Assembly: GCA_023249635.1 (NCBI GenBank)
Contig: JAHFCH010000010.1
Location: 1-32,343 of the forward strand
Length of the DNA: 32,343 bases
Direction: 5' to 3'
From: Fibrobacterota bacterium
GTDB taxonomy: Bacteria; Fibrobacterota; Fibrobacteria; UBA11236
Both the position numbers and the translations under genes were made by a program. Each line of letters starts with the position of its first letter. The stretch's first letter is position 1. This document shows positions 17,298 to 31,020 of this stretch, one piece after another. The notes beneath the pieces were generated by a model. That model was given only the letters and a program-made list of their open reading frames with translations, was not told where the DNA came from and searched no databases.

Positions 17298-17860
17298 ATG
17301 TCGAAATTCTGGAATGATCATTGGTCCGAACGCTTTCGCCGCGAGCTGGCCTTACGCAATTACTCCGACGCGACCTGCCGCTCCTATCTCCAGGTGCTTT
17401 CGGCCTTCCTCGCTTCATCTCCCGGCGACCCGCGTAAACAGAATCGGGATAACATTTGCGCATACCTCGGCCTTCTGCACGGGAGTGCCGGCCTTTCGGC
17501 ATCCACCCGTAATCTCCATCGCTACGCCATGACCTTCTTCTTCCGGCACGTCCTGCGCCAAGCAGCCCCCGTTAGCGATCTCCCCCATGCCAAAGGCACG
17601 CAAAAACTCCCCGACGCTCGCTCCAAGCCGTATTCGAAAGCGCCAAAGCCAAGGCAGGCATTTCGGGCCAAGGCGGCATCCACGCGCTGCGCCATTCCTA
17701 CGCAACCCATCTGCCCGAAAACGGAACCGATCTGCGCTACATCCAGGTACTCTTGGGCCACAGTGATTCGAGAACCACGGAACGGTACACGCGCGTGCTC
17801 ACAAGCCACTATCCGAAATTACCGAGCCCGTTGGATTTGCTCAAAAAAGCGCAGAAATGA
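17298..17860 (+). pseudogene. tyrosine recombinase/integrase remnant with central deletion
   Basis: The first frame (17298 to about 17620) encodes the N-terminal SAM-like core-binding domain (FRRELALRNYSDATCRSYLQ, STRNLHRYAMTFFFRHVL). The next recognisable part is in another frame, up to TGA 17858-17860. It encodes the C-terminal catalytic end: [28 protein letters not shown] with the Tyr nucleophile, and the closing SPLDLL seen in IntI-like and solitary integrases. About 95-100 residues that should lie between them are missing, including the first catalytic Arg and the Lys hairpin, so this cannot be an active enzyme. The junction lies near 17612-17625. It directly precedes the toxin-antitoxin pair, which suggests an old mobile segment. 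Confidence 0.8.
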
Positions 17861-17880
17861 AGCCCGAAAAGGTTTCCACT

Positions 17881-17899
17881 TGTTCCCAAATTGGGAACA
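17881..17899. promoter_or_regulatory. palindromic operator of the HigBA pair
   Basis: TGTTCCCAA-A-TTGGGAACA is a perfect inverted repeat with nine-base arms and a one-base centre. It ends 17 bases before the toxin ATG at 17917. HigA-type antitoxins bind such palindromes to repress their own operon. That this one is bound by the adjacent HigA is inference. Confidence 0.75.
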
Positions 17900-17916
17900 T
17901 GCTACCTTTAAGGAAG

Positions 17917-18216
17917 ATGAGAGTTATCGCCGTCAGAACCCTTAAGGAATTTTGGGAAAGACCGGCCCATCGCGATGCGGAGCAGCCACTCAGGGCGTGG
18001 TACGCGGAAGCCAGAGAAGCGGATTGGCGCGGGCCGAAGGACATCAAATCCAAACACCTTTCCGCCAGCATCCTCGGGGACAATCGGGTGGTTTTCAACA
18101 TCAAAGGGAACAAGTATCGCCTTATCGTGGCCGTGAAGTATGACTTCAGGATTGTCTATATCCGGTTCATCGGAACCCACAAGGATTACGATGCTGTGGA
18201 TGCGAGGAGCGTATAA
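17917..18216 (+). CDS. higB: HigB-type toxin (RelE/ParE superfamily mRNA interferase)
   Basis: The 99-residue product starts MRVIAVRTLKEFWER, the usual start of the HigB_toxin family. It contains AWYAEAREADWRGPKDIK, NRVVFNIKGNKYRLIVAVKY and VYIRFIGTHKDYD, all hallmark blocks. These toxins cut mRNA on the ribosome. ATG 17917 is chosen because homologues begin there and AAGGAA lies just before it. Earlier in-frame ATGs at 17857 and 17899 would place the operator inside the gene. The toxin-first order and a one-base overlap (TAATG) with the antitoxin gene are typical of higBA. Confidence 0.93.
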   Translation: MRVIAVRTLKEFWERPAHRDAEQPLRAWYAEAREADWRGPKDIKSKHLSASILGDNRVVFNIKGNKYRLIVAVKYDFRIVYIRFIGTHKDYDAVDARSV

Positions 18217-18599
18217 TGAACATTAAACCGATAAAAACGAATGCCGATTACAACTCAGCCCTCGCACGAATCGATTTCCTTTGGGATGCCGAGCCGAATA
18301 CCAAAAAAGGCGATGAACTTTCGATCCTGGCAATCTTGGTCGAATCCTATGAAGCGGAGAAATACAAGATCCTTCCCCCGGACCCGGTCGAGGCCATTCG
18401 TTTTCGAATGGACCAACTCGGCCTCAAAAAAACGGACTTAGCGAAGTTCCTAGGGGGACGGAATAGATCGACGGAGATACTGAACCGAAAGCGCTCCCTA
18501 TCGGTACGAATGATGCGGGCCCTTCATCATAAATTGAAAATCCCCGCAGCGTCCCTTCTCGCGGAAAAGCCGATATCAACGAAAAAACGAGCCGCCTGA
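18216..18599 (+). CDS. higA: HigA-type antitoxin (XRE family HTH)
   Basis: The 127 residues contain an N-terminal toxin-binding part and an HTH domain at about 66-118 (IRFRMDQLGLKKTDLAKFLG, then NRSTEILNRKRSLSVRMMRA). This is the standard HigA arrangement. It should neutralise HigB and repress the operon through the palindrome upstream. Its start overlaps the toxin stop by one base, so translation is probably coupled. Both genes look intact, so the module may still be active even though the neighbouring integrase is broken. Confidence 0.93.
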   Translation: MNIKPIKTNADYNSALARIDFLWDAEPNTKKGDELSILAILVESYEAEKYKILPPDPVEAIRFRMDQLGLKKTDLAKFLGGRNRSTEILNRKRSLSVRMMRALHHKLKIPAASLLAEKPISTKKRAA

Positions 18600-19158
18600 T
18601 TCAATCAATCGGGCGCTCGGTTCGATGTTCCCGTCTACGCGCCTCCAAGGAGCCATTCCATGCCACCATTGTCCCCCCTGCTTCCTTTTCCGTTCCTCTT
18701 ACTGGCGTTTTCGACCGTCCATTCCTTGGATAAGGGATGTGAACTCTCGAAAATGGGCAAAGGCCAGAAGAATTTCCTAAATCGATTTCAATCGCATCCG
18801 TCCTCAAGGCGACGGGAATTCCGGAGAACATCTGCGGCATAGCCATGCGGGAGTGGCCGCAAAGAAAAGGCAGCGAAGAAATCCCGATTTCTTTCCCTGC
18901 TGATTTCAGATTTCACCTCCGCTTTTGGACCCGCATCCGTTCTCAAAGCAAAAGCCTCTTCCTGGACAGGAGGAGGCTCGGAACAAACTCACTTTGTGGT
19001 GTATTTGTATTTTCAGGCTTGCGTACCCCACTATGCAAAATACGAAAGGGGGGACATAAGCCCCACTCCGATCCCGTGCTCGCAATTCGGGCAAGCTCTA
19101 AAACCAACTGCGCCCTGCGGGCACGTTGCAACCCACATTCCGAATCCCGTTCCGTTCC
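18600..19158. other. gene-poor stretch with a possible decayed secreted-protein gene
   Basis: Between higA and the SnoaL-like gene there is no convincing intact gene. A short reading frame from ATG 18660 (see its own entry) could be the start of a decayed gene whose continuation lies in a second frame to about 18930. The rest (about 18930-19158) shows no codon pattern, RNA fold or repeat that I could recognise. Confidence 0.5.
18660..18842 (+). pseudogene. possible remnant of a small secreted protein gene (frameshifted)
   Basis: AAGGAG lies seven bases before ATG 18660, and the first residues (MPPLSPLLPFPFLLLAFST) look like a signal peptide. After about residue 31 the frame loses protein character. 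Another frame then reads more naturally (SISIASVLKATGIPENICG, then GSEEIPISFPADF) until about 18930. A one-base slip near the A-run at 18750-18755 would join them. This is weak evidence, and it may be chance. Confidence 0.3.
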
Positions 19159-19587
19159 CTAATTCAGTTCATGCTCGCACGGAGATTCCCGACTACGCTC
19201 GATGATCGGGTTGATCGTGGCGCTGTCGACATACTGATCGAAGCGAACGATCCTCCCCTCTGAAATATCGAGCACATGGACTACTGCCGCGCGCACGCTC
19301 TTGCCCGTCGTCTTGCCCTGGGCGACGTAGTGGCCTTGCATGACGACCACGTTTCCGGCTTCGAGCAGTCGCTCGATGCCGATCGAGAAAGACTCGAAGT
19401 CCTGTGGGATCTTCGAAAAAACGTTCTGGAGGATGGCATCCGGGCCTCGGTAGATCCCCCCGTACTTGTAGCCGGCCGTTACGGTCCATTGGATTTGCGG
19501 ATGCATCGAGCCGAGCACTTTCGGGACGTCCCCGACGTTGAACGCCGCGTAAACGCTTTTCACTAAGTCCAGGTTATTCAGGGTCAT
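19159..19587 (-). CDS. SnoaL-like / NTF2-fold protein
   Basis: The 142-residue product (start ATG 19587, GGAGA seven bases upstream) has the SnoaL/NTF2-like pattern. An N-terminal helix (LDLVKSVYAAFNVGDVPKVL) is followed by MHPQIQWTV, then GGIYRGPDAILQNVF, and a beta-sheet with VVVMQGHYVAQGKTTGKSVR and GRIVRFDQYVDSATI. Such proteins are small cone-shaped barrels that act as isomerases, hydrolases or binding proteins; this one resembles the 'nuclear transport factor 2 family / ketosteroid isomerase-related' group. It lies downstream of the interrupted ATPase regulator on the same strand, separated by 117 bases that hold a palindrome and a hairpin, so it may be that regulator's target. The substrate is unknown. 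Confidence 0.85.
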   Translation of the reverse strand: MTLNNLDLVKSVYAAFNVGDVPKVLGSMHPQIQWTVTAGYKYGGIYRGPDAILQNVFSKIPQDFESFSIGIERLLEAGNVVVMQGHYVAQGKTTGKSVRAAVVHVLDISEGRIVRFDQYVDSATINPIIERSRESPCEHELN

Positions 19588-19604
19588 TTGCTTTCTCCAG
19601 GGTG

Positions 19605-19626
19605 CGGAGAGGCCGCCGCCTCTCCG
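19605..19626 (-). promoter_or_regulatory. leader hairpin before the SnoaL-like gene
   Basis: CGGAGAGGC (19605-19613) and GCCTCTCCG (19618-19626) form a nine-pair stem with a four-base loop, 17 bases before the start codon. No run of T follows it on the minus strand, so it is not a simple terminator; it may affect RNA stability or translation. Confidence 0.5.
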
Positions 19627-19669
19627 TAAGTTTGCTTCCACGAGTAAGGCGTTCGGTCTGGCCCGGTTG

Positions 19670-19690
19670 CCGTTCGTTCGGAACGAACGG
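19670..19690. promoter_or_regulatory. perfect 21-base palindrome, probable regulator binding site
   Basis: CCGTTCGTTC-G-GAACGAACGG has ten-base arms and a one-base centre. It sits 14 bases after the stop of the ATPase gene and about 80 bases before the SnoaL-like start. No T-run follows, and the spacing resembles TetR-type operators, so an operator is more likely than a terminator. No TetR gene is present in the window. Confidence 0.6.
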
Positions 19691-19704
19691 GCCGGATTTA
19701 GGAT

Positions 19705-20796
19705 TTAGGTCGACCAGATGACGTGGGTGCGCGGCTCGTAGCAGCAGGAGACTCCGGTCGCGATCGAATCGCCCAAGTGCGCTGCCAGCTCCGGAAGCGC
19801 GGTCGAGAGCTGGCTGATGGCGTGGCGGATCGTCCGCGTCACGTTGAGCCGCGCCTTCTCCGTTGGCGAGCCCATCGGCCGCGGTTTGCCGCCAAGACCC
19901 GTGGCCCGCGCGAGCTCTTTGAGCAGCGCCTCGCGCTCGGCGCTGCGCTTGTCATGGCGGGTGATGTCCTGTTTGGCTTCGGCGTCGTCGAGGTCCTCGT
20001 CCAACTCGAGAAGCCGGTTCCGGTACTGCCGGAGCGCTACGCGATCGAGCATGGACCCGGCGTCGCCAATCGGAAGCGGATCTTCGCTGGGTGCGGCGAT
20101 CAGGGAGAGGGCCAGAACGGGTGAATGGGGGCGGGAAACCAGCTCGCGCAGGTGCCAAAGTCCCTTCATGTCCTGCACGTGGGCGTTTCTGTCGTTGAAT
20201 GCGATGTGCCAGACGCCGCCCGTGGGTCGGAGGGTCGCGTTCTGCACGGGTTCAACGCGCGACGTCTGCGTGAGCAGATCCACTATCTTCCGAGCGGTCG
20301 CTTCGTCGCGGATAGCGTGCGCGATAGGCAGGGCCTCCCGCAAAAGCGTCGACGCCAGCGAAAGCTCACCTTGTTTTGCCGTCACGCGCGCCAATGCGAG
20401 CAGGTTCCGCGGCATCGAACCGTGGATGGTCCTGAAGTTGACCGCGTTAATCTCCCGACGGCATCGAAGCGCTCGTTCCCAATACCTACGGGCTTCCGGA
20501 AGGGAGGCGCGCTCCTCCCAGATTTCACCCAGACTATTGCAGGCGACCATTTCCCCGACGCGGAAACCTTTGCGGTGGAACAGCTCGGCGCACTCGCTGA
20601 AGACCGCGATGGCGGTGTCCACGTTCCCCTGGGTGCGCTTCGCGTTGCCCACGTTCCACAGGCCGAACCCTTCTGCCCACGTGCCGCGCGCCTCCGCGTG
20701 GCGGCGCACGACCGCCAGTCCAGCCTCGGTGCGAGCCACCGCCGACGGCACATCGCCGTTGTAGACGTCGCACTCCCCTCTCAGGCAGAGGAGCAT
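19705..20796 (-). CDS. distal (TPR and C-terminal) part of an interrupted STAND ATPase regulator
   Basis: This frame continues the upstream ATPase gene: the codons from 20871 to 20797 are open and in phase, and only the TAG at 20872-20874 separates the two parts. It carries TPR-like helical repeats (GLWNVGNAKRTQGNVDTAIA, CNSLGEIWEERASLPEARRY, LALARVTAKQGELSLASTLL). A coiled-coil/helical tail follows, and the C-terminal block RTIRHAISQLSTALPELAAH, then GVSCCYEP, common at the end of large 'predicted ATPase plus TPR' regulators. ATG 20796 has no clear ribosome-binding site, so independent translation is doubtful. The piece alone lacks any catalytic motif. Confidence 0.7.
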   Translation of the reverse strand: MLLCLRGECDVYNGDVPSAVARTEAGLAVVRRHAEARGTWAEGFGLWNVGNAKRTQGNVDTAIAVFSECAELFHRKGFRVGEMVACNSLGEIWEERASLPEARRYWERALRCRREINAVNFRTIHGSMPRNLLALARVTAKQGELSLASTLLREALPIAHAIRDEATARKIVDLLTQTSRVEPVQNATLRPTGGVWHIAFNDRNAHVQDMKGLWHLRELVSRPHSPVLALSLIAAPSEDPLPIGDAGSMLDRVALRQYRNRLLELDEDLDDAEAKQDITRHDKRSAEREALLKELARATGLGGKPRPMGSPTEKARLNVTRTIRHAISQLSTALPELAAHLGDSIATGVSCCYEPRTHVIWST

Positions 20797-20871
20797 TCCG
20801 AAGATCGGTGGCGGCTCGCTCGCGTCGGCTAGGAGCCCTATCCCTAAGTCGCATGACCGGGCAGCGGTCGT

Positions 20872-22314
20872 CTAGTCCTCCGTTTCCTGCGCGATCATGA
20901 ACCCATGGGCGAATTGCGCCGTGGCCAGCAGTTCGGTGGGGGCCTCCGGCGCGGCAGCGATCGCTTGCTCGAGCCAGCCAATGCCTTCGCGGAGCCTGGC
21001 GCGTACCCACCAAGCAGGAAACAGCGTGGCGGCCAGCTCCAGCGCGGCCACACGATCGATCACGAGCAAATGGGCGAGGGCGACCCGTAGGTTATCGTCG
21101 ATGCGGGTGAGCACGTCGATGTGGGGCCGCTCGAATTCAGTCATCAATCCGGCGCAGGCCTGGAGCGCGACCCCTTGGTAATAGCGTGCGTGCCGTTCGC
21201 GTACGGCGTCGTTTTCGCTGCCCGTTTTCCCGTCCGTTTCGCCGTCCGCTTCGAGCGGCTCGACGCAGTACTGCCGGATGGTTTCGAGCGATTGATACCC
21301 TTCGCCATTGCCGAGCTTCAGGAGCAGCGATTTCTCGACGAGCCGGGCGGTAAGATCGGCGACTCGCGCAGCCGTCTGGCCCTCGCTGGCGCAGACTTCC
21401 TTGATGGCGCCTAAGTCGAACCTGCCTGAGAAAACGCCCATGCGCCGAAGCAAGCGCCGCTCTTCCACGGTGAGGAGCGCATCGCTCCACTCCACGGTGG
21501 CGCGCAGGGAGCGCAGGGCCCCGTCCGCGCGCCGTGCACGTTGCGGGAGCAAGGTGAACAAATCGTCAAGATGCGACGCGATGTCCTCCGGATCCAGGCC
21601 GACCACGCGCGCGGCGGCAAGCTCGATCGCAAGCGGGAGCCCGTCAACGCGGCGGCAGATGTCGCCGAGGAGGCGGCAGGCGCGCTCATTATCGAGCGCC
21701 ACCGCCGCGCGGGCGCCGGCGCGCTCCCGGAACAATCGTACTGAGGCGCTGGCGGCGACCTCCTCAAGGCTTGCGTCCGGGCTCACCACGCCAAGCGGGG
21801 CGAGCCGGTAGGTCACCTCGCCATCGAGCCATAACGGCTCTCGACTGGTCGCCAGAACCCGTAGCCGCGGCAGTCGCCCCGTCAAGCCGGAGACGAGATC
21901 CGCAACGGCGGAAACGACGTGCTCGCAGTTGTCAATCAGGAGCAGCACATCGCGTTCGGTTAACCAGACGCTGAGCGCATCCTCGAAGGACTGCCCCCCC
22001 GACCTCGGCAAGCCGAATTGGGCGGCGACCTCAGCCGCGACCAGATCCGCTGATCGGAGCGAGCCGAGCCAAACGACGGTCACGCCGTCCGAAAAGTCCG
22101 GTTCACATGCCGCCGCAACCGCGATCGCGAGCGAGGTCTTGCCCACGCCTCCGGGTCCAAGCAGGGTGGTAACCTGGGCCGACGTGACGCTCTCACTGAC
22201 GTCGCGAATCTCTCTTTCCCTGCCGACGAGTCGCCGCGGGCGCAATGCCATCGTGATCGGATTCGACCCTCTAAGGTGTGTTTGCCCGGAAATGCCGTCT
22301 TTACGCATCCCCAT
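20872..22314 (-). CDS. STAND/NB-ARC-type ATPase regulator (N-terminal part, ends at an amber codon)
   Basis: The 480 residues form a signal-transduction ATPase of the AfsR/MalT-like kind. Walker A is GPGGVGKTS at 53-61, Walker B is VLLLIDNCE at 123-131, the sensor block is LATSREPLW, and GLPLAIELAAARV is the conserved helix. A winged-helix-like region (ATVEWSDALLTVEERRLLRR) and the first TPR-like helices follow. There is no N-terminal DNA-binding or cyclase domain, which such proteins often have. The frame stops at TAG 20872-20874 (QETED-stop), but reading continues in phase for 389 more codons to 19705. The whole would be an 869-codon gene, so this is probably a recent nonsense mutation, a sequencing error, or read-through. 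ATG 22314 has AGGT eight bases upstream. Confidence 0.82.
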   Translation of the reverse strand: MGMRKDGISGQTHLRGSNPITMALRPRRLVGREREIRDVSESVTSAQVTTLLGPGGVGKTSLAIAVAAACEPDFSDGVTVVWLGSLRSADLVAAEVAAQFGLPRSGGQSFEDALSVWLTERDVLLLIDNCEHVVSAVADLVSGLTGRLPRLRVLATSREPLWLDGEVTYRLAPLGVVSPDASLEEVAASASVRLFRERAGARAAVALDNERACRLLGDICRRVDGLPLAIELAAARVVGLDPEDIASHLDDLFTLLPQRARRADGALRSLRATVEWSDALLTVEERRLLRRMGVFSGRFDLGAIKEVCASEGQTAARVADLTARLVEKSLLLKLGNGEGYQSLETIRQYCVEPLEADGETDGKTGSENDAVRERHARYYQGVALQACAGLMTEFERPHIDVLTRIDDNLRVALAHLLVIDRVAALELAATLFPAWWVRARLREGIGWLEQAIAAAPEAPTELLATAQFAHGFMIAQETED

Positions 22315-22438
22315 AATCTACCTGAAGAGTGTGCTCACGATGTAACTGCTGTAAGTCCCTTAAATTAAAGATAATTGCAATTCATGTTTCTTTTGGGTAG
22401 CATGTAGCGCTGGCGAAAAGTTTTGATAAAGGATCCAA

Positions 22439-23065
22439 ATGGAAATTGGTGAATTGCCGCTTGACATGCAAGAGCTCGTTCTTGGCGAGGTGCGCAACGA
22501 AGAAAAATCGATTTGGGCAGACCAGCCGGATCCCAATAAATCCATAGTTTCAGGAATACCCCCGGTACTTCTCGGAATACCATTGGTAGCCTTTGCATGC
22601 TATTTAGTGCACGGTTCTTCTATCATGTTATACCACGCATCTGGATTTCCCCAGTTTAAAACGACCGTTCCTTTTTTCATATTCATAGCGCTTTTTGGAA
22701 TACTAGGCGGAATACTGTCCTTTCTCTTTGGCTTAGGCATGTTCGCCACTCCATACTTGAAAAAGCTAGGCGCGTTGAAAACCGTGTATGTGCTCACGAA
22801 TAAAAGAGCGATCTGTTTCAATAAAATCGGACTGTTCCATAAACGTTTCAAGGGCTACGAAATACTTTCATACTATCCCGATAAATTGATCAACATGCAC
22901 AAAGTCGTTCGTGAAAATGGATCGGGGGATTTGAGATTTGTGGAAGTCCCGATACGCAGTCCCGGACCGGACCCTTTTTTAAGTTTTAGAAAAGTCGGAT
23001 TTCTATCCATCAAAAATGTGAACAACGTCGAAGACCTTATTCGGAAGACGCTTTTAGAAAAATAG
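22439..23065 (+). CDS. bacterial PH-domain membrane protein
   Basis: AAAGGA lies just before the ATG. The 208-residue product has two hydrophobic segments at about 37-60 (SGIPPVLLGIPLVAFACYLV) and 75-102 (VPFFIFIALFGILGGILSFL). A beta-rich domain with VYVLTNKRAICFNKIG follows, the hallmark of the bacterial PH (YdbS/DUF304-like) domain where 'Y.lT..R.i' opens the barrel. Such proteins sit in the inner membrane with the PH-like domain in the cytoplasm; their function is largely unknown. The gene and its flanks are clearly richer in A+T than the surrounding DNA, which suggests separate origin. It stands alone, divergent from the ATPase regulator. Confidence 0.75.
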   Translation: MEIGELPLDMQELVLGEVRNEEKSIWADQPDPNKSIVSGIPPVLLGIPLVAFACYLVHGSSIMLYHASGFPQFKTTVPFFIFIALFGILGGILSFLFGLGMFATPYLKKLGALKTVYVLTNKRAICFNKIGLFHKRFKGYEILSYYPDKLINMHKVVRENGSGDLRFVEVPIRSPGPDPFLSFRKVGFLSIKNVNNVEDLIRKTLLEK

Positions 23066-23119: not shown

Positions 23120-24163
23120 CTATTTAAGAAACTTCTTCTTGGTCCCATGGCGCCATATCCGCCGCCCCCTCAAATCAAGCATGGTATGGACCTCACTCCC
23201 AAGGATATTCGACGAAGAAACGACTTCCAAATATCCGCCGCGCAGGGTGTAGGACCTAGCCTCGGTAACTTGCATCCGAGGCCCGGTGATGAAAACCGGA
23301 ATCGGCTGGTACTCAAAGGCCCCCAAGTCCACCGCCTTACCAAAGACACGGGAATACCCATCGAGGTCCTTGGCGGAGGCCCCCGTGTTCAACGAATCGA
23401 CGAGGCCGGTGTCTTTGGCCGGAGAGTTTTCTCGCAAGTGGTAATTGCCCGCCGAGGCATCGATGAACAGCGATTCCGACCCCATGCAGTGGTCGAAGTA
23501 GACATAGTTGGTTGGAGGCCCCTTGAACTTCTTCAGGCTGTCCACGAAGGCGCAGTTCTTGAATTGGATGCTGACGGCCTGGGTGGCGGCCGATATGGCC
23601 CGGGGATCGAGGCCGCGGGCGAAGGTGCAGTTGAGGAGATAGCCGCTGCTGCCGTAATTGTTTTGGATGGAATTGACGGACATGAAGACGGAGTCGGGGA
23701 AGAGGGTGTTGTAGAAGAAGAATCCCGCGCCCGATGCCGCGTAGATGGATTTCGCGCGGACGATGGAGGTTTTGACCGTCACGGGCCCGTCCAGCGATGA
23801 GACATCGGCCATCGTGGCATGGGAGATGTTGACTCTTCCTTTCGTGGAGATCTTTCCCAGTGAGCAATAGTCCAGGATGCCGAGCTCCACCGTGAGGCTC
23901 GATAAGGAGTCGAACCGGATGGGGTCCTTGGCCGTGCCTATGGCGGTCAGGTTGCAGAAAGAGACTCTGCCCTGCCCCTTGAAGGTGGTGCCGGGCAGGA
24001 TATCGACCACGCTTTCGACGGTATTGCTCAGAGAACCGGATACCGTAATGGTGCCGGCCAGGACCGCGGGGCCTGTCAGGGTTCCCGTGAGGCTGGTATC
24101 CCGGTAGGTGATGGACCAAGCCGAGCCGGCCATAAGCAGGCCTATGCAGACAAGGTTTTTCAT
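23120..24163 (-). CDS. secreted right-handed beta-helix protein (choice-of-anchor Q type)
   Basis: A signal peptide (MKNLVCIGLLMAGSAWS) is followed by a parallel beta-helix of short strands (GRVSFCNLTAIGTAKDPIRF, VSIQFKNCAFVDSLKKF). Near residue 240-290 is the 'choice-of-anchor Q' signature (NYHLRENSPAKDTGLVDS, then DLDGYSRVFGKAVDLGAFEY), common on extracellular proteins. The C-terminus has MLDLRGRRIW, like the sorting-like motif of other secreted proteins here, but only about ten residues follow, fewer than in the others. Its ATG overlaps the stop of the upstream GLUG gene (ATGA), so the two are co-expressed and translationally coupled. The ligand or substrate is unknown. Confidence 0.82.
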   Translation of the reverse strand: MKNLVCIGLLMAGSAWSITYRDTSLTGTLTGPAVLAGTITVSGSLSNTVESVVDILPGTTFKGQGRVSFCNLTAIGTAKDPIRFDSLSSLTVELGILDYCSLGKISTKGRVNISHATMADVSSLDGPVTVKTSIVRAKSIYAASGAGFFFYNTLFPDSVFMSVNSIQNNYGSSGYLLNCTFARGLDPRAISAATQAVSIQFKNCAFVDSLKKFKGPPTNYVYFDHCMGSESLFIDASAGNYHLRENSPAKDTGLVDSLNTGASAKDLDGYSRVFGKAVDLGAFEYQPIPVFITGPRMQVTEARSYTLRGGYLEVVSSSNILGSEVHTMLDLRGRRIWRHGTKKKFLK

Positions 24164-26925
24164 AGTGTCACCTTCCTTATGAAGCGTGCGATGCGGCCTG
24201 TATGCAGGTCTTCGACCCGCAGGGCCGAGAGATAGATGCCTGGAGCCAGTCCGGGCAGGGTCAGGTGCGCCCAGTCGTTCGCGCCGGTGGAGGTTTCCTG
24301 ATCGGAGATCATGGACCCGGAGGCGGAGTAGAGCTGGAGACGGATGCGGGCCGCATATCCGGTCTTGACCCGGATTCCCGAGCCGAAGTCCGCGAGGAGG
24401 GTGACTCCGGGCGGCGCGGGGGCGGGCTGGAAGTGGTCCCAGACCCGGACCGGGAATCGGGTGAAGGCTTTCAGGTAGGGATAACCGTCGTTGATGGCGG
24501 GGGAGAGGGACCAGATATCCTGGGTGGCGGTGTCATCGTTGGGTTTGCCGGCGAAGTCCCAGGGAGTGTCCAGGCCGGTCGTGCCGATGCGGGTGAAGGT
24601 GGCGAGGTCCTTCATTTCGTCGGTGCTTTTTCCGGTACCGGCGGCGGAAAAGATCATGACCGAGGTATGCCGATCCCAGAAGGAGTTGAACACCCGGTCT
24701 TTCACGGCCGTGCCGATGAGGCCGCCATAGGTTCCCGTGGAGGTGTACTTTTTGATGAGTCCCGTGGAATAGCAGTTCTCCACCCAAGAGGAATCACCCT
24801 TCAGCTCCTGTATCAGTCCGCCCGAATAGTAATCGCCGGCCACTTCTCCCCGCGCGAAGGAATTGGATATCCTGGCTTGTTCGGCTACTCCGATGAGGCC
24901 GCCCGCCCGGTAGTTCTTGAGGGTGACGAAGGCGAAGGTATTGGAAACGGGACAGCCGGAGACACTGCCCGCAAGACCGCCGGCGTAGTTGGAACTGCCC
25001 TCGATTTTCCCAGTCACATAGACCCGGGAGATTTCTCCTTTGCTCGCGGGGCCGGTGCCGCAGTATGCGCTTCCCACCAGGCCACCCAGGTAACTGTTTC
25101 CGGTAAAATCAAAATTGACGACACCGAGATTCTTGAGGGTGGCTTTGGACACGGTGCCAAAAAGTCCTTGGGCCTGACCGTTCGGTTTCAACTTCAACCC
25201 GGAGATTTCATGATCGCCTCCGTCGAAACTGCCCTGGAAGGTCGTGTCTTGCTTGCCGATGGCCCGGAACCCCTCGCCCTTGTTCTCGAAGGCGCCGCCC
25301 GCGGCGAAATCGGCGGCGGTGAAAGCGATATCCGAAGTGAGCAGGTAGTGCAGGTCCGCTCTCCATTCACCGGAGTTGGTGCTCAGGAAGCCAAGGTCGG
25401 CCTTGTTGACGATGCGATAGGGGTCCGCCTTCATGCCGGAACCTTTATACGGGTGGGTGAGGATGAACAGCTGTTGTCCATATGCCACCCCGCTATCATT
25501 CCTGGCGAAGGCTCGTACATAGTACCGGGTGTTGGGCAAGAGCCCGGTGGGGGTATGTGAAAAGGATGGGAACGCCGAGGCGGTTCCGAAATCCTTTTCC
25601 GGATCCTTGCCTCTTTCCGGCATGCCCGTGGTATTCCAGACGAAGCCATAAGCGGTGATGCCCGTTTTTCCGATATCCAGGATCCTTCCCGTGACCGTGA
25701 AACAGGTATCCAGGGCCCCGAAGATGTCCCGAGTGGAGACGGCCGGAAGGACTGGAAGTGATTGCCATTGGAAGATGGGATATCCCTGGTTCGCGATGGC
25801 GGAAAACGTCCAGGTATTTGTGAAGCTCCATCCGGCGCTGATATAGATGGTCTGGGCCTTCATCTCGGCCGTGGATTTGCCCGCTCCTCCTCTTGAGGCG
25901 CCCAAGCCGCTGGCCGCCGTGTCCCAGAAGGAATTCTCGCTACGTTGCGCGGTATCCCTTCCGATCAATCCGCCCGTGGTGGTTGGTACGTCATTCACCG
26001 GACCGGTGGAGTATCCCCGGAGGACCTTGCCTTTCAAAATGTCCCCGACCAGCCCGCCGCAGGAGATCTTGGCCTGGACCTTCCCCATGGCGTAGACATC
26101 GTTCAGTTCTCCATTGGCGAGGTATCCCACCAGGCCCCCCACGCCATAATTGCCCCGGACAGTGCCGGTCGCGAAGGAGATCGCCAGGGAGGGCCGGCCA
26201 CTTACCCACTCATCCTGATGCCCGATGAGCCCGCCGATCTGGTTATCTCCCACCACATCGGAGGTGGAGGAGGATTTCTGCACCAAGGTGTCATAGGGAT
26301 GCGAGACGGCGACACCCTCGCTGAACCCGATCAGCCCGCCTACCTCTACCAGGCCTTGGACCGAGCCGGCCGAATGGCAGCCTGTCACCCAGCCCCGGTT
26401 ATATCCGATGAGCCCGCCGACGCGTTCGCCCCGGCCCGTTCCTTCCACGGCTCCCGTGACCATGCAATTCGTGACCTTGCCCCGGTTGAGGCCGGCCATG
26501 CCGCCGGTCCGCGAACTGCCCTGGACGCGCACGTCGAGAAGGCGGAGATTCCTGATCGCAGCGCCGGTATCGAGGGTTCCGAAGAAACCCCAGGCGGAAT
26601 CGTAGCCGGAGTTCGCCACCAGTTTCCGCATCCGCAAGCCCGTGATGCTGTGTCCTTCCGCGTCATAGCTTCCCCGGAAGGCCCAACCGAAGGCGGTGCT
26701 TGAACCTATGGGCAGGAAGTTGGCGGTGTCGAGAAGGATATCGGCCGTTTGCCGGAAGTTACTGGCCCAATCGGCCGTAGTCGCGGAGAGGAACCTCAAG
26801 TCGGCCGGGGTGGCGATACGATAGGGATCGGCGGGGGTACCTGCGCCACCGGAGTAGGCCTGGGCGCGAAGAGGAGCGACGACGGAGATGGCGAGCATGG
26901 ACAGCACCGTCAAGGCTTTATTCAC
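24160..26925 (-). CDS. large secreted GLUG-repeat protein with C-terminal sorting-like domain
   Basis: The 921 residues start with a signal peptide (cleavage near LRAQA). Residues about 24-390 and 494-830 are two blocks, each opening with 'ADPYRI...ADL.FLS' and followed by GLUG-type units (GGLIGYNRGWVTGCHSAGSV; NYAGGLAGSVSGCPVSNTFA). These fold as a beta-helix. Between them, about 395-490, lies a fibronectin III-like domain (YGFVWNTTG, LLPNTRYYVRAFARNDSGVA). Residues 850-921 carry the sorting-like tail with LYSASGSMIS and a terminal FIRKVTL. Such proteins are usually adhesins or surface-exposed binding proteins. It is the first gene of a two-gene operon with the beta-helix protein and diverges from a small envelope gene. 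Confidence 0.87.
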   Translation of the reverse strand: MNKALTVLSMLAISVVAPLRAQAYSGGAGTPADPYRIATPADLRFLSATTADWASNFRQTADILLDTANFLPIGSSTAFGWAFRGSYDAEGHSITGLRMRKLVANSGYDSAWGFFGTLDTGAAIRNLRLLDVRVQGSSRTGGMAGLNRGKVTNCMVTGAVEGTGRGERVGGLIGYNRGWVTGCHSAGSVQGLVEVGGLIGFSEGVAVSHPYDTLVQKSSSTSDVVGDNQIGGLIGHQDEWVSGRPSLAISFATGTVRGNYGVGGLVGYLANGELNDVYAMGKVQAKISCGGLVGDILKGKVLRGYSTGPVNDVPTTTGGLIGRDTAQRSENSFWDTAASGLGASRGGAGKSTAEMKAQTIYISAGWSFTNTWTFSAIANQGYPIFQWQSLPVLPAVSTRDIFGALDTCFTVTGRILDIGKTGITAYGFVWNTTGMPERGKDPEKDFGTASAFPSFSHTPTGLLPNTRYYVRAFARNDSGVAYGQQLFILTHPYKGSGMKADPYRIVNKADLGFLSTNSGEWRADLHYLLTSDIAFTAADFAAGGAFENKGEGFRAIGKQDTTFQGSFDGGDHEISGLKLKPNGQAQGLFGTVSKATLKNLGVVNFDFTGNSYLGGLVGSAYCGTGPASKGEISRVYVTGKIEGSSNYAGGLAGSVSGCPVSNTFAFVTLKNYRAGGLIGVAEQARISNSFARGEVAGDYYSGGLIQELKGDSSWVENCYSTGLIKKYTSTGTYGGLIGTAVKDRVFNSFWDRHTSVMIFSAAGTGKSTDEMKDLATFTRIGTTGLDTPWDFAGKPNDDTATQDIWSLSPAINDGYPYLKAFTRFPVRVWDHFQPAPAPPGVTLLADFGSGIRVKTGYAARIRLQLYSASGSMISDQETSTGANDWAHLTLPGLAPGIYLSALRVEDLHTGRIARFIRKVTL

Positions 26926-28437: not shown

Positions 28438-31020
28438 ATGTTAAACGGGATTCTGATGTGTTCGGTGCTGCTGCAATCGGCCGCAGCAACCGCAGATGAT
28501 TGGGGTGAACTACAATCGATACTATCGGGCATCGTAGGCAGGTATACGGCACCGCCTCAATTGAGTGATGTCGTAACAAACGGATATACGGCCGGGCAAT
28601 TGCTGGGTAACGGTGATATTGCCGTTACCGCGGACGCACGCAATCATACGCATAGGTTTTACATCGCCAAATCGGGATTTTTCAATCCCGCCACCCAAAA
28701 ATTGACCTTTGGATCAGTTGCGATTATGGGACCGAATTCCGCCCCAGATCCTTCCGAAAAAATTCTTCAGGAACAGGACATCTTGAATGCGGAAGTCCGT
28801 TCTACCATCGTTATCGAAGGCCAAACCGTCACCATGAAGACATGGGTGGTTGAATCGGAGAACTTATTGGTTACCGAGCTCATAACGGCCTCGAATGCGG
28901 CAACGATTCCGATTATCGTCAGCGTGCAAATCCCTTCCAATGCAAGTTACCCGGCGACGAGCCTTGCGGGAACGGGGATTGCATCGGTGACACGAACCAG
29001 CGCGGCTGCTCCGGGCAACAATGCGTGGTTTTGCCAGGCCGCCGCTTCTACCGGGGTTATCGGCGCTACGGCGACTGCATCGGCGCCAAGCGCCAATGAA
29101 GCCCGATTGCAGTTTTCGCTGTCTCCCAATACTTCCGTTCAAATAGTAACGTCGATAAAAGGCGATGCCCGGCCGCATACGGCTGCTACTCCCGGCGTTA
29201 CCACCTATCGGAATTCAACGGTTCAGCGGGTGGCAGGACTGACCATGGGTACGCTTACGACCTTACATCAGGAGCATCTTGACTGGTGGAAAAAATTCTG
29301 GCTGAAGTCTTATGTCAAGTTGAATGACGCCGCATTGGAGAAGTTCTATTACGGTGGGCTGTATGCGCTGGGAGCCTCAATCCGTGAGGGCTTTATCATA
29401 CCGGGTACCTACTCTGCCTGGAGTAACAACGATTCCGCTACTGCGAAATATTACCTGAATTACAACTATGAAGCGCCGATGTATGGCGTTTTCACCGGCA
29501 ACCGGCCCGAGTTGGCAAAGCCTTATTATGCCCCGATATTGTCGGAAGCACCCTATTCGCAGAACAAAACCGCAGCAGCAGGTTACAAAGGAGTATGCTT
29601 CCTTAGATCTTTTGCTCCCTTAAACATTTATGGCCCGGCACCGGCATTGAATCCCATCGCTTCCGCAAAAGATTTCACCAAGCTTCCCTCCGACCAGAAA
29701 ACCAACGGCACTTTTGCGGCAATACCGTTTATCTGGAATTATGAATACATGGGCGATACGGCTTTCTTTTCCAGTACTACGTATCCGTTCCTGAAAAACC
29801 TGGGCGAGTTCTGGATGGATTACCTGGCAAAGAACGCCGCCGGGCGGTATATCGTTGAACATACCGCCGTCAATGAGGGCGGTCACGATTTGAATTCCGC
29901 TTATGACCTGGGATATATCCGTCTGCTTTTCAAATCATTGCTCAAAGGAAGCCTGGATTTGGGCGTGGATGCGAATAAAAGGGCTGCCTGGCAGGATATA
30001 GTGGACCATCTTGTCGATTATCCGACGGGTACCATGAGCGGATTCAATAAGCAGGTATTTTATCTGGCCGAAACCATCAACAATTCCACCAAGGGTAATG
30101 CGCTTTTGAATATCGGCGATCAGCCGATTAATCTGGAGGGCATTGTTCATCCCGGTGACAATTATACGATTGGTTCCGATGATACAAAGCTGCAGCTTGT
30201 CAGAAACACCCTTGAATATGTGAATCCGTTTACTCCCGGGAGCAGGGGAGCATCCATGAATGGATTTCCGAAGACCTTTACCATCGCCGCTAGAGCGGGC
30301 TGGCCCGCCGAAGATTTAATCAGCAAATTCAAAGCGGCGATCAGTTATGGCTGGCGGGAAAACCTTACCGTCAAGCAAGGCGGCGGCGCACATGAAACTT
30401 CCGGGGCGATAGAAACCATAAACTCCATGCTGCTGCAGACCAACGGAACCGTCACCCGGGTATTCCCTTGCTGGCCAACGGCCAGGAATGCGAAGTTCGT
30501 AAGGCTTCGCGCCAAAGGAGCATTCCTTATTTCAAGCGAAATGAACAACGGCGGAATATTGTATGTCGACATAACCAGTGAGAAGGGGAATCCGATAACG
30601 CTGATGAATCCGTTCGCGTCGGGAAAAGCGGTAACGCTCTTCCGCAACGGCGTGAAGAAAGGCTCACTTACCGGCGATACCCTGAGCCTCACCACTTCGA
30701 CGAATGAAGTTATCGAGCTGACGCCCGATGGCATCGGGGCGGGACGTCCCGGACTTTCGGCAGCTGAGAGAGCCGCTTACCGGATCGTGCCGGCCGCCGG
30801 AGCGATTGTCGTCGAATTTCCGGCTCGGCTGTGCCATTCCGTTTCGCTGTTTTCACTGGGTGGAAAGAGTGTGTATTCGTGCCGGGTACCGGCCTCCGGC
30901 CGTGCGAGGATTCCCCTGGCCGCCGTGGGGCCCGGGGTATTTTTGGTTCGCGTGGATCGCTTGGGCGGCAATGGCCTGCCGGTCTGGTCGTGGAACGAGC
31001 GCGCCACGTTCATGAAGTAG
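28438..31020 (+). CDS. secreted six-hairpin glycosidase, GH95-like (possible alpha-L-fucosidase/galactosidase)
   Basis: The 860 residues begin with a short hydrophobic signal (MLNGILMCSVLLQSAAATA). Residues 40-275 form a beta-sandwich (GNGDIAVTADARNHTHRFYI). A helical linker (HQEHLDWWKKFW, 277-288) leads to an alpha/alpha barrel at about 290-680. Blocks resembling GH95 are NYNYEAPMYG at 340-349 (Asn340 and Asn342 at the sites of the GH95 Asn pair), AVNEGG with Glu480 where GH95 has its general acid, and GAIETINSMLLQTNG near 625-640. The Asp of the GH95 'DGNFG' motif is not obvious, so the assignment is to the wider six-hairpin clan with GH95 the best guess. The final 75 residues carry the LFSLGG sorting-like motif. 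The ATG at 28438 lacks a clear ribosome-binding site. Confidence 0.65.
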   Translation: MLNGILMCSVLLQSAAATADDWGELQSILSGIVGRYTAPPQLSDVVTNGYTAGQLLGNGDIAVTADARNHTHRFYIAKSGFFNPATQKLTFGSVAIMGPNSAPDPSEKILQEQDILNAEVRSTIVIEGQTVTMKTWVVESENLLVTELITASNAATIPIIVSVQIPSNASYPATSLAGTGIASVTRTSAAAPGNNAWFCQAAASTGVIGATATASAPSANEARLQFSLSPNTSVQIVTSIKGDARPHTAATPGVTTYRNSTVQRVAGLTMGTLTTLHQEHLDWWKKFWLKSYVKLNDAALEKFYYGGLYALGASIREGFIIPGTYSAWSNNDSATAKYYLNYNYEAPMYGVFTGNRPELAKPYYAPILSEAPYSQNKTAAAGYKGVCFLRSFAPLNIYGPAPALNPIASAKDFTKLPSDQKTNGTFAAIPFIWNYEYMGDTAFFSSTTYPFLKNLGEFWMDYLAKNAAGRYIVEHTAVNEGGHDLNSAYDLGYIRLLFKSLLKGSLDLGVDANKRAAWQDIVDHLVDYPTGTMSGFNKQVFYLAETINNSTKGNALLNIGDQPINLEGIVHPGDNYTIGSDDTKLQLVRNTLEYVNPFTPGSRGASMNGFPKTFTIAARAGWPAEDLISKFKAAISYGWRENLTVKQGGGAHETSGAIETINSMLLQTNGTVTRVFPCWPTARNAKFVRLRAKGAFLISSEMNNGGILYVDITSEKGNPITLMNPFASGKAVTLFRNGVKKGSLTGDTLSLTTSTNEVIELTPDGIGAGRPGLSAAERAAYRIVPAAGAIVVEFPARLCHSVSLFSLGGKSVYSCRVPASGRARIPLAAVGPGVFLVRVDRLGGNGLPVWSWNERATFMK

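Follow-up and report, generated by a model that had tools for sequence, protein, structure and literature searches.

Does the long open reading frame that continues beyond an internal TAG codon in this Fibrobacterota genome belong to the gene in front of it, and, if so, how is the stop codon best explained? The window analyzed here, a stretch of 32,343 nucleotides, comes from a draft genome (341 contigs, 6.75 Mb, 95.35% complete, 1.6% contamination). On its minus strand, 480 codons are read from an ATG at 22314 to a TAG at 20874-20872 (ORF and translation; the plus strand reads CTA at 20872-20874), and the same frame then runs through 388 sense codons up to TAA 19707-19705 (389 codons with the stop), the earliest ATG, GTG, or TTG beyond the TAG being the ATG at 20796, 25 codons on. 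The initial annotation had all of these numbers right (the ATPase part ending at the TAG, the 389-codon continuation, and the distance to the next ATG), and its frame and coordinates stand, although it omitted that the gene lies on the minus strand. Apart from the TAG, no further stop or frameshift is present in either half. The features of the locus are collected in Table 1.

Table 1. Features of the split gene and its surroundings, in window coordinates.
Feature	Position	Strand	Evidence or description
N-terminal fragment, 480 codons: STAND/NB-ARC-like ATPase, helical region after the ATPase, first helix of a TPR-like pair	20872..22314	-	ORF, translation, sub-cut-off Pfam matches, homology
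In-frame TAG; aligned codon TGG (Trp) in 5/5 close homologues	20872..20874	-	Codon alignment
C-terminal fragment, 388 codons + TAA: TPR superhelix and conserved C-terminal domain	19705..20871	-	Pfam, AlphaFold, PDB matches, homologues
SnoaL-like small protein, adjoining the split gene downstream	19159..19641	-	Pfam SnoaL_2, 54.5 bits
Phage-type tyrosine integrase remains	17298-17857	+	N-terminal SAM-like part and C-terminal catalytic part in different frames, middle missing
HigB-type toxin gene, then probable HigA-like antitoxin gene	17857-18599	+	HigB Pfam 108 bits; antitoxin by eye, no Pfam match

Homology and domain order across the TAG

An open frame behind a stop codon is weak evidence by itself in this organism. 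Nine of 246 ORFs of at least 150 amino acids in a 356-kb sample of the same genome have an in-frame extension longer than that of the split gene, and these are taken as the next gene lying in the same frame or as a frame shadowing a gene. Since the genome is GC-rich and long post-stop frames are not rare, the case for a single gene must rest on homology. A homologue scan of a genome collection (84,980 species), which used two peptide patterns and an alignment of the far half with two relatives from Actinomycetes, returned eight relatives, four of which span the far half nearly completely (57-73% identity) and four of which (Nonomuraea, Actinomadura) match in the C-terminal domain only (31-38%). 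A pattern scan of genome contigs with the whole frame gave 21 stretches that matched the pattern, none of them encoding a relative. The close full-length homologues number five, from Deltaproteobacteria/Sandaracinaceae metagenome-assembled genomes (MAGs; L029, L030), Acidimicrobiia MAGs (L031, L032), and a genome of the same order as that of L029 (G686, locus L054), the last found among 183 genomes of that order with the best five candidates per genome scored. Among 395 genomes of the class of L031, with the best two candidates per genome, just the two already known were recovered.

Each of the five close homologues is one continuous ORF, 854-868 codons long (L029, 856; L030, 854; L031, 868; L032, 860; G686, 856), is 64-77% identical to the joined window frame, and aligns to it from residue 9-25 through residue 869. 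Because each crosses both halves in one ORF, the two halves are, on the evidence of sequence homology, one gene rather than a gene followed by a chance open frame, as the initial annotation had proposed. Homologues that end near residue 480 and are followed by a separate downstream gene were sought among the five, and the one-gene reading stood. The CAG-to-TAG change that had been offered as an example is unsupported, as the column holds a Trp codon in all five close relatives. A more distant Streptomyces homologue (L024, ~33% identity) is likewise a single 899-aa coding sequence, annotated 'AAA family ATPase', with Leu at the TAG column. Inside the ATPase half, a 12-base imperfect tandem repeat lies at 21207-21248 (minus strand), at a point where, by eye, the window protein (DGETDGKTGSEND) has extra length relative to the four homologues compared.

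The proposed order of ATPase, TPR, and C-terminal part was borne out, and is shared by the close homologues. The N-terminal half contains GPGGVGKT, DNCEH, TSREP, and GLPLAIELAAAR blocks, of which the first corresponds to the P-loop and the others include a GLPL-type block, in the motif terms of STAND/NB-ARC proteins. Pfam matches of this half to STAND, AAA, and NB-ARC models are weak and all below cut-off (NB-ARC 20.6 bits, cut-off 23.5), and the NB-ARC model scores above cut-off in two of the five close homologues (L054, 27.6; L029, 23.9) and below it in the other three (L031, 23.4; L030, 22.2; L032, 19.1); the protein is thus likely to be a P-loop NTPase of the STAND clade. In the C-terminal half, TPR_12 (32.5 bits, cut-off 30.1) and TPR_10 exceed their Pfam cut-offs. 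These repeats share the frame of the ATPase in the window, beyond the stop, and form one polypeptide with it in the close homologues. The AlphaFold model of the far half alone (mean pLDDT 82.4) shows a TPR superhelix, which matches TPR structures in the PDB, followed by a separate C-terminal domain, the conserved part of the family at approximately residues 690-869 of the joined frame. No solved structures related to L029 by sequence were found. The full-length L029 model (mean pLDDT 59.4 overall, 83-94 in the local block) was used for the local helix pair only; there, Trp468, the residue at the TAG column, opens helix 468-482 directly after helix 447-465, so that the TAG is predicted to separate the paired helices of a TPR-like unit and not to lie at a domain border.

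Pfam and NCBIfam models identified no DNA-binding or effector domain in either window half, and Pfam identified no DNA-binding domain in the five close homologues or in the Streptomyces homologue. The label "regulator" in the initial annotation consequently reflects resemblance only. An anti-phage defence role was considered and dropped, as the one match of a PADLOC search with three proteins paired the far half with a generic TPR model.

Gene neighbourhood and origin

Neither half found a second copy in its own genome that might substitute for the gene, and the near half had no match in five congeners. A search of the phylum with the joined frame (167 genomes, own genome included, best five candidates each) gave only two strong matches, the gene itself and a tail in the congener G004; among the same best candidates, five further matches were weak (E 1.9e-4 to 9.3e-4) and all to the N-terminal region. 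The G004 piece (L015, G004:C81, 10990-11180) carries the final 38 codons of this gene together with the following stretch, as a 198-column DNA match of 92% identity to window 19622-19818, and the sequence around it has no other DNA match to the window. A palindrome lies at window 19681-19705, shortly past the TAA, and a 7-base tandem duplication near it is absent from the G004 copy.

The SnoaL-like ORF is called from a GTG at 19641, and its conserved part begins near residue 17, so that the true start probably lies inside the called ORF. By tblastn, two of the five loci (L030 and G686, the latter as L056) have a homologue of this gene (67-76% identical) directly behind the ATPase-TPR gene, and no match was obtained in the examined stretches of L029, L031, and L032. 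Because the order is common to the window, L030, and G686, the two genes probably moved together. DNA matches to all or part of the stretch 17878-18594, within the toxin-antitoxin region, occur in four of the five congeners. The remains of an integrase and the hairpin after the gene suggested an integron cassette array, a candidate that was rejected because no repeated attC-like family was seen among the repeats listed or by eye. On the other side of the split gene, at 24160-26925 (minus strand), lies a GTG-started ORF of 921 codons whose product contains GLUG motifs (Pfam 64 bits over the entire protein) and may be a large surface protein.

Given its sporadic presence in the phylum, its nearest kin in Deltaproteobacteria and Acidimicrobiia MAGs, and the broken integrase nearby, the split gene looks horizontally acquired, and the sporadic presence and decayed neighbourhood fit a failed transfer. 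The Sandaracinaceae MAG holds a second copy of the ATPase half (L055, G168:C161, 5157-6052) that has a frameshift around query residue 155 and breaks off around query residue 310, where what appears by eye to be aldehyde-dehydrogenase-like sequence continues in frame. Decay of such ATPase genes is therefore not unique to the window genome.

Age of the stop and competing explanations

If the stop were old and the far half no longer translated, relaxed constraint would be expected beyond it. On a fixed topology the window branch measures 0.20 in the N half and 0.26 in the C half, a ratio of 1.29 that lies inside the range of the other five tips (0.84-1.76). Compared with L029, the window has dN 0.12 and dS 0.98 in the N half and dN 0.16 and dS 1.79 in the C half, from a set of half-gene YN00 estimates in which 3 of 14 failed and dS was near or past saturation. 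Codon changes unique to the window comprise 21 silent and 11 replacement changes in the near half and 13 silent and 8 replacement changes in the far half, whereas the other five tips, pooled, show 43 silent and 14 replacement changes in that far half (Fisher p 0.27; p 0.21 over the whole gene, window versus other tips); the replacement share of the window is somewhat above that of the others in both halves, without significance. An unconstrained far half would be expected to contain a second stop (95% probability) after ~0.08-0.10 substitutions per site. Neither the branch-length ratio nor the replacement share relative to the homologues revealed relaxed constraint in the far half. Free trees of the two halves, built without support values, disagree, placing the window beside L029 and G686 in the near half and outside L029, G686, and L030 in the far half. 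The saturated dS, the failed estimates, and the conflicting half trees make these tests of constraint coarse.

A far half without excess decay implies that the stop is young, is an error, or is tolerated because ribosomes pass it. The explanation judged probable is the first, namely a real and young nonsense allele in an acquired ATPase-TPR (STAND-type) gene of approximately 869 codons. A horizontally acquired ATPase-TPR gene would have suffered a single nonsense substitution at a conserved Trp codon on this lineage, and we infer that the change either became fixed recently or is a strain-level allele that entered the consensus; in both cases the absence of relaxed constraint is what youth predicts. 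Of the four options initially offered, a young mutation, polymorphism, and sequencing error remain, and programmed read-through has no support other than the preserved far half, which is explained as well by youth.

It is unlikely, though worth weighing, that the TAG is a consensus or base-call error and that the gene is intact in the organism. The source is a fragmented draft, and the rest of the gene looks intact and constrained, as an error would leave it; however, the change is of a naturally occurring substitution type, and substitution errors are rare in deep short-read consensus sequences.

There is a smaller chance that the stop is tolerated or read through in a programmed manner, some ribosomes passing the TAG and making the full 869-residue protein in lowered amount. 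A functional read-through gene would likewise keep the 388 codons beyond the TAG constrained, and many internal stops in bacteria are argued to keep dN/dS under 1 (PMC7918605). Against this, the TAG occurs at this place in none of the five close homologues, and the codon serves as a stop in this organism. Release factor RF1 is encoded in the genome (484.7 bits, above the curated cut-off). ARAGORN assigned ordinary anticodons to all 43 tRNA genes, with Trp as CCA only and no CUA anticodon, in a genome whose 95.35% completeness means that a tRNA gene could be missed. In the 356-kb sample, TAG is the stop codon of 63 of the 246 ORFs that reach 150 aa and of 42 of the 157 that reach 300 aa; in the window it ends 5 of the 12 ORFs checked, including the glycosidase at 28438-31020, whose TAG end had already been noted as a sign that the codon is a real stop, a point that the RF1 and the sampled ORFs confirm. 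A reassigned TAG code was rejected on the same evidence (RF1, the 43 tRNAs, and the sampled ORFs). The base after the TAG is A, and the 80 nt that follow fold no better than shuffled sequences (z 0.26). An exact 20-base pattern spanning the site had no matches in viral contigs. In a still more remote variant, which we consider very improbable, the TAG is standing and selected, with low-level UAG read-through setting how much sensorless 480-residue ATPase is made relative to the full ATPase-TPR protein; if true, a STAND protein would be under a translational switch in a bacterium whose code is otherwise standard.

The last alternative, a genuine split into two genes with the downstream one starting at ATG 20796 (363 codons), draws on the open frame from that ATG and on distant relatives in which the C-terminal domain occurs with no ATPase part detected. 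Six of these, on plasmid records (L025, L026) and in genomes (L033-L036), match from query residue 605 or later at 31-38% identity; tblastn found no ATPase match in any of the six stretches, and Pfam found no ATPase model in L025, L026, and L033. Nevertheless, their frames extend hundreds of codons ahead of the match and none starts at the place of the stop, while a seventh (L027) has an ATPase domain by Pfam within the same 1140-codon frame, so the ATPase-less forms are read as domain shuffling in the wider family that sets no precedent for two genes at this locus. Moreover, ATG 20796 is an internal Met in all five close homologues and has no obvious ribosome-binding site by eye, the lone promoter-like match in 19100-22500 lies at 19229-19202, outside the C-terminal part, and no start signal for separate synthesis of the far half was seen by eye. 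With the TAG also cutting a predicted helix pair, the close homologues and the structure led to the rejection of two natural genes, a reading that scarcely retains any probability.

Comparison with known systems

Taking the young nonsense allele as the preferred reading, the gene as written could give no more than a 480-residue ATPase, which would be without the TPR sensor and the C-terminal domain and would end inside a helix pair. The alignment shows one mark of a pseudogene, a disabling change where the relatives are intact (TAG versus TGG in 5/5), and the product is most likely unstable or inactive, making this a putative loss-of-function allele. A deregulated truncated ATPase is conceivable but less likely, by analogy with the TPR-sensor STAND proteins MalT and PH0952, in which the sensor touches the core of the ATPase and contributes to holding it closed (PMC6468293).

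The feature is thus most likely real but ordinary, a nonsense allele in an acquired gene with no exotic reading of the code. It offers a clean small example of the apparent early decay of a transferred gene, with the reading frame almost perfectly preserved so far, and it cautions that gene callers would report two proteins at this locus that look unrelated. If strains were found to have kept the stop with the far half constrained, the locus would provide a natural test of whether read-through can be functional in a bacterium with the standard code.

Among known systems, the split gene resembles the ATPase-TPR STAND proteins of the AfsR/MalT type. As in those proteins, a likely N-terminal P-loop NTPase with NB-ARC-like blocks precedes the TPRs, in the window as one frame across the stop; unlike them, the window halves show no SARP, LuxR, or other DNA-binding domain, the gene ends in a distinct C-terminal domain, and the window copy is interrupted. 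The uninterrupted homologues (L029-L032 and G686) share nearly the same length, the same domain order, and their identity nearly end to end, and differ in having Trp where the window has TAG. Young internal stops and failed-transfer pseudogenes of bacteria, as described in PMC7918605 and PMC522871, differ from the window allele in that the latter is known from one genome alone. They resemble it in the single nonsense change with constraint still visible, and in a sporadically distributed acquired gene with the remains of a mobile element nearby.
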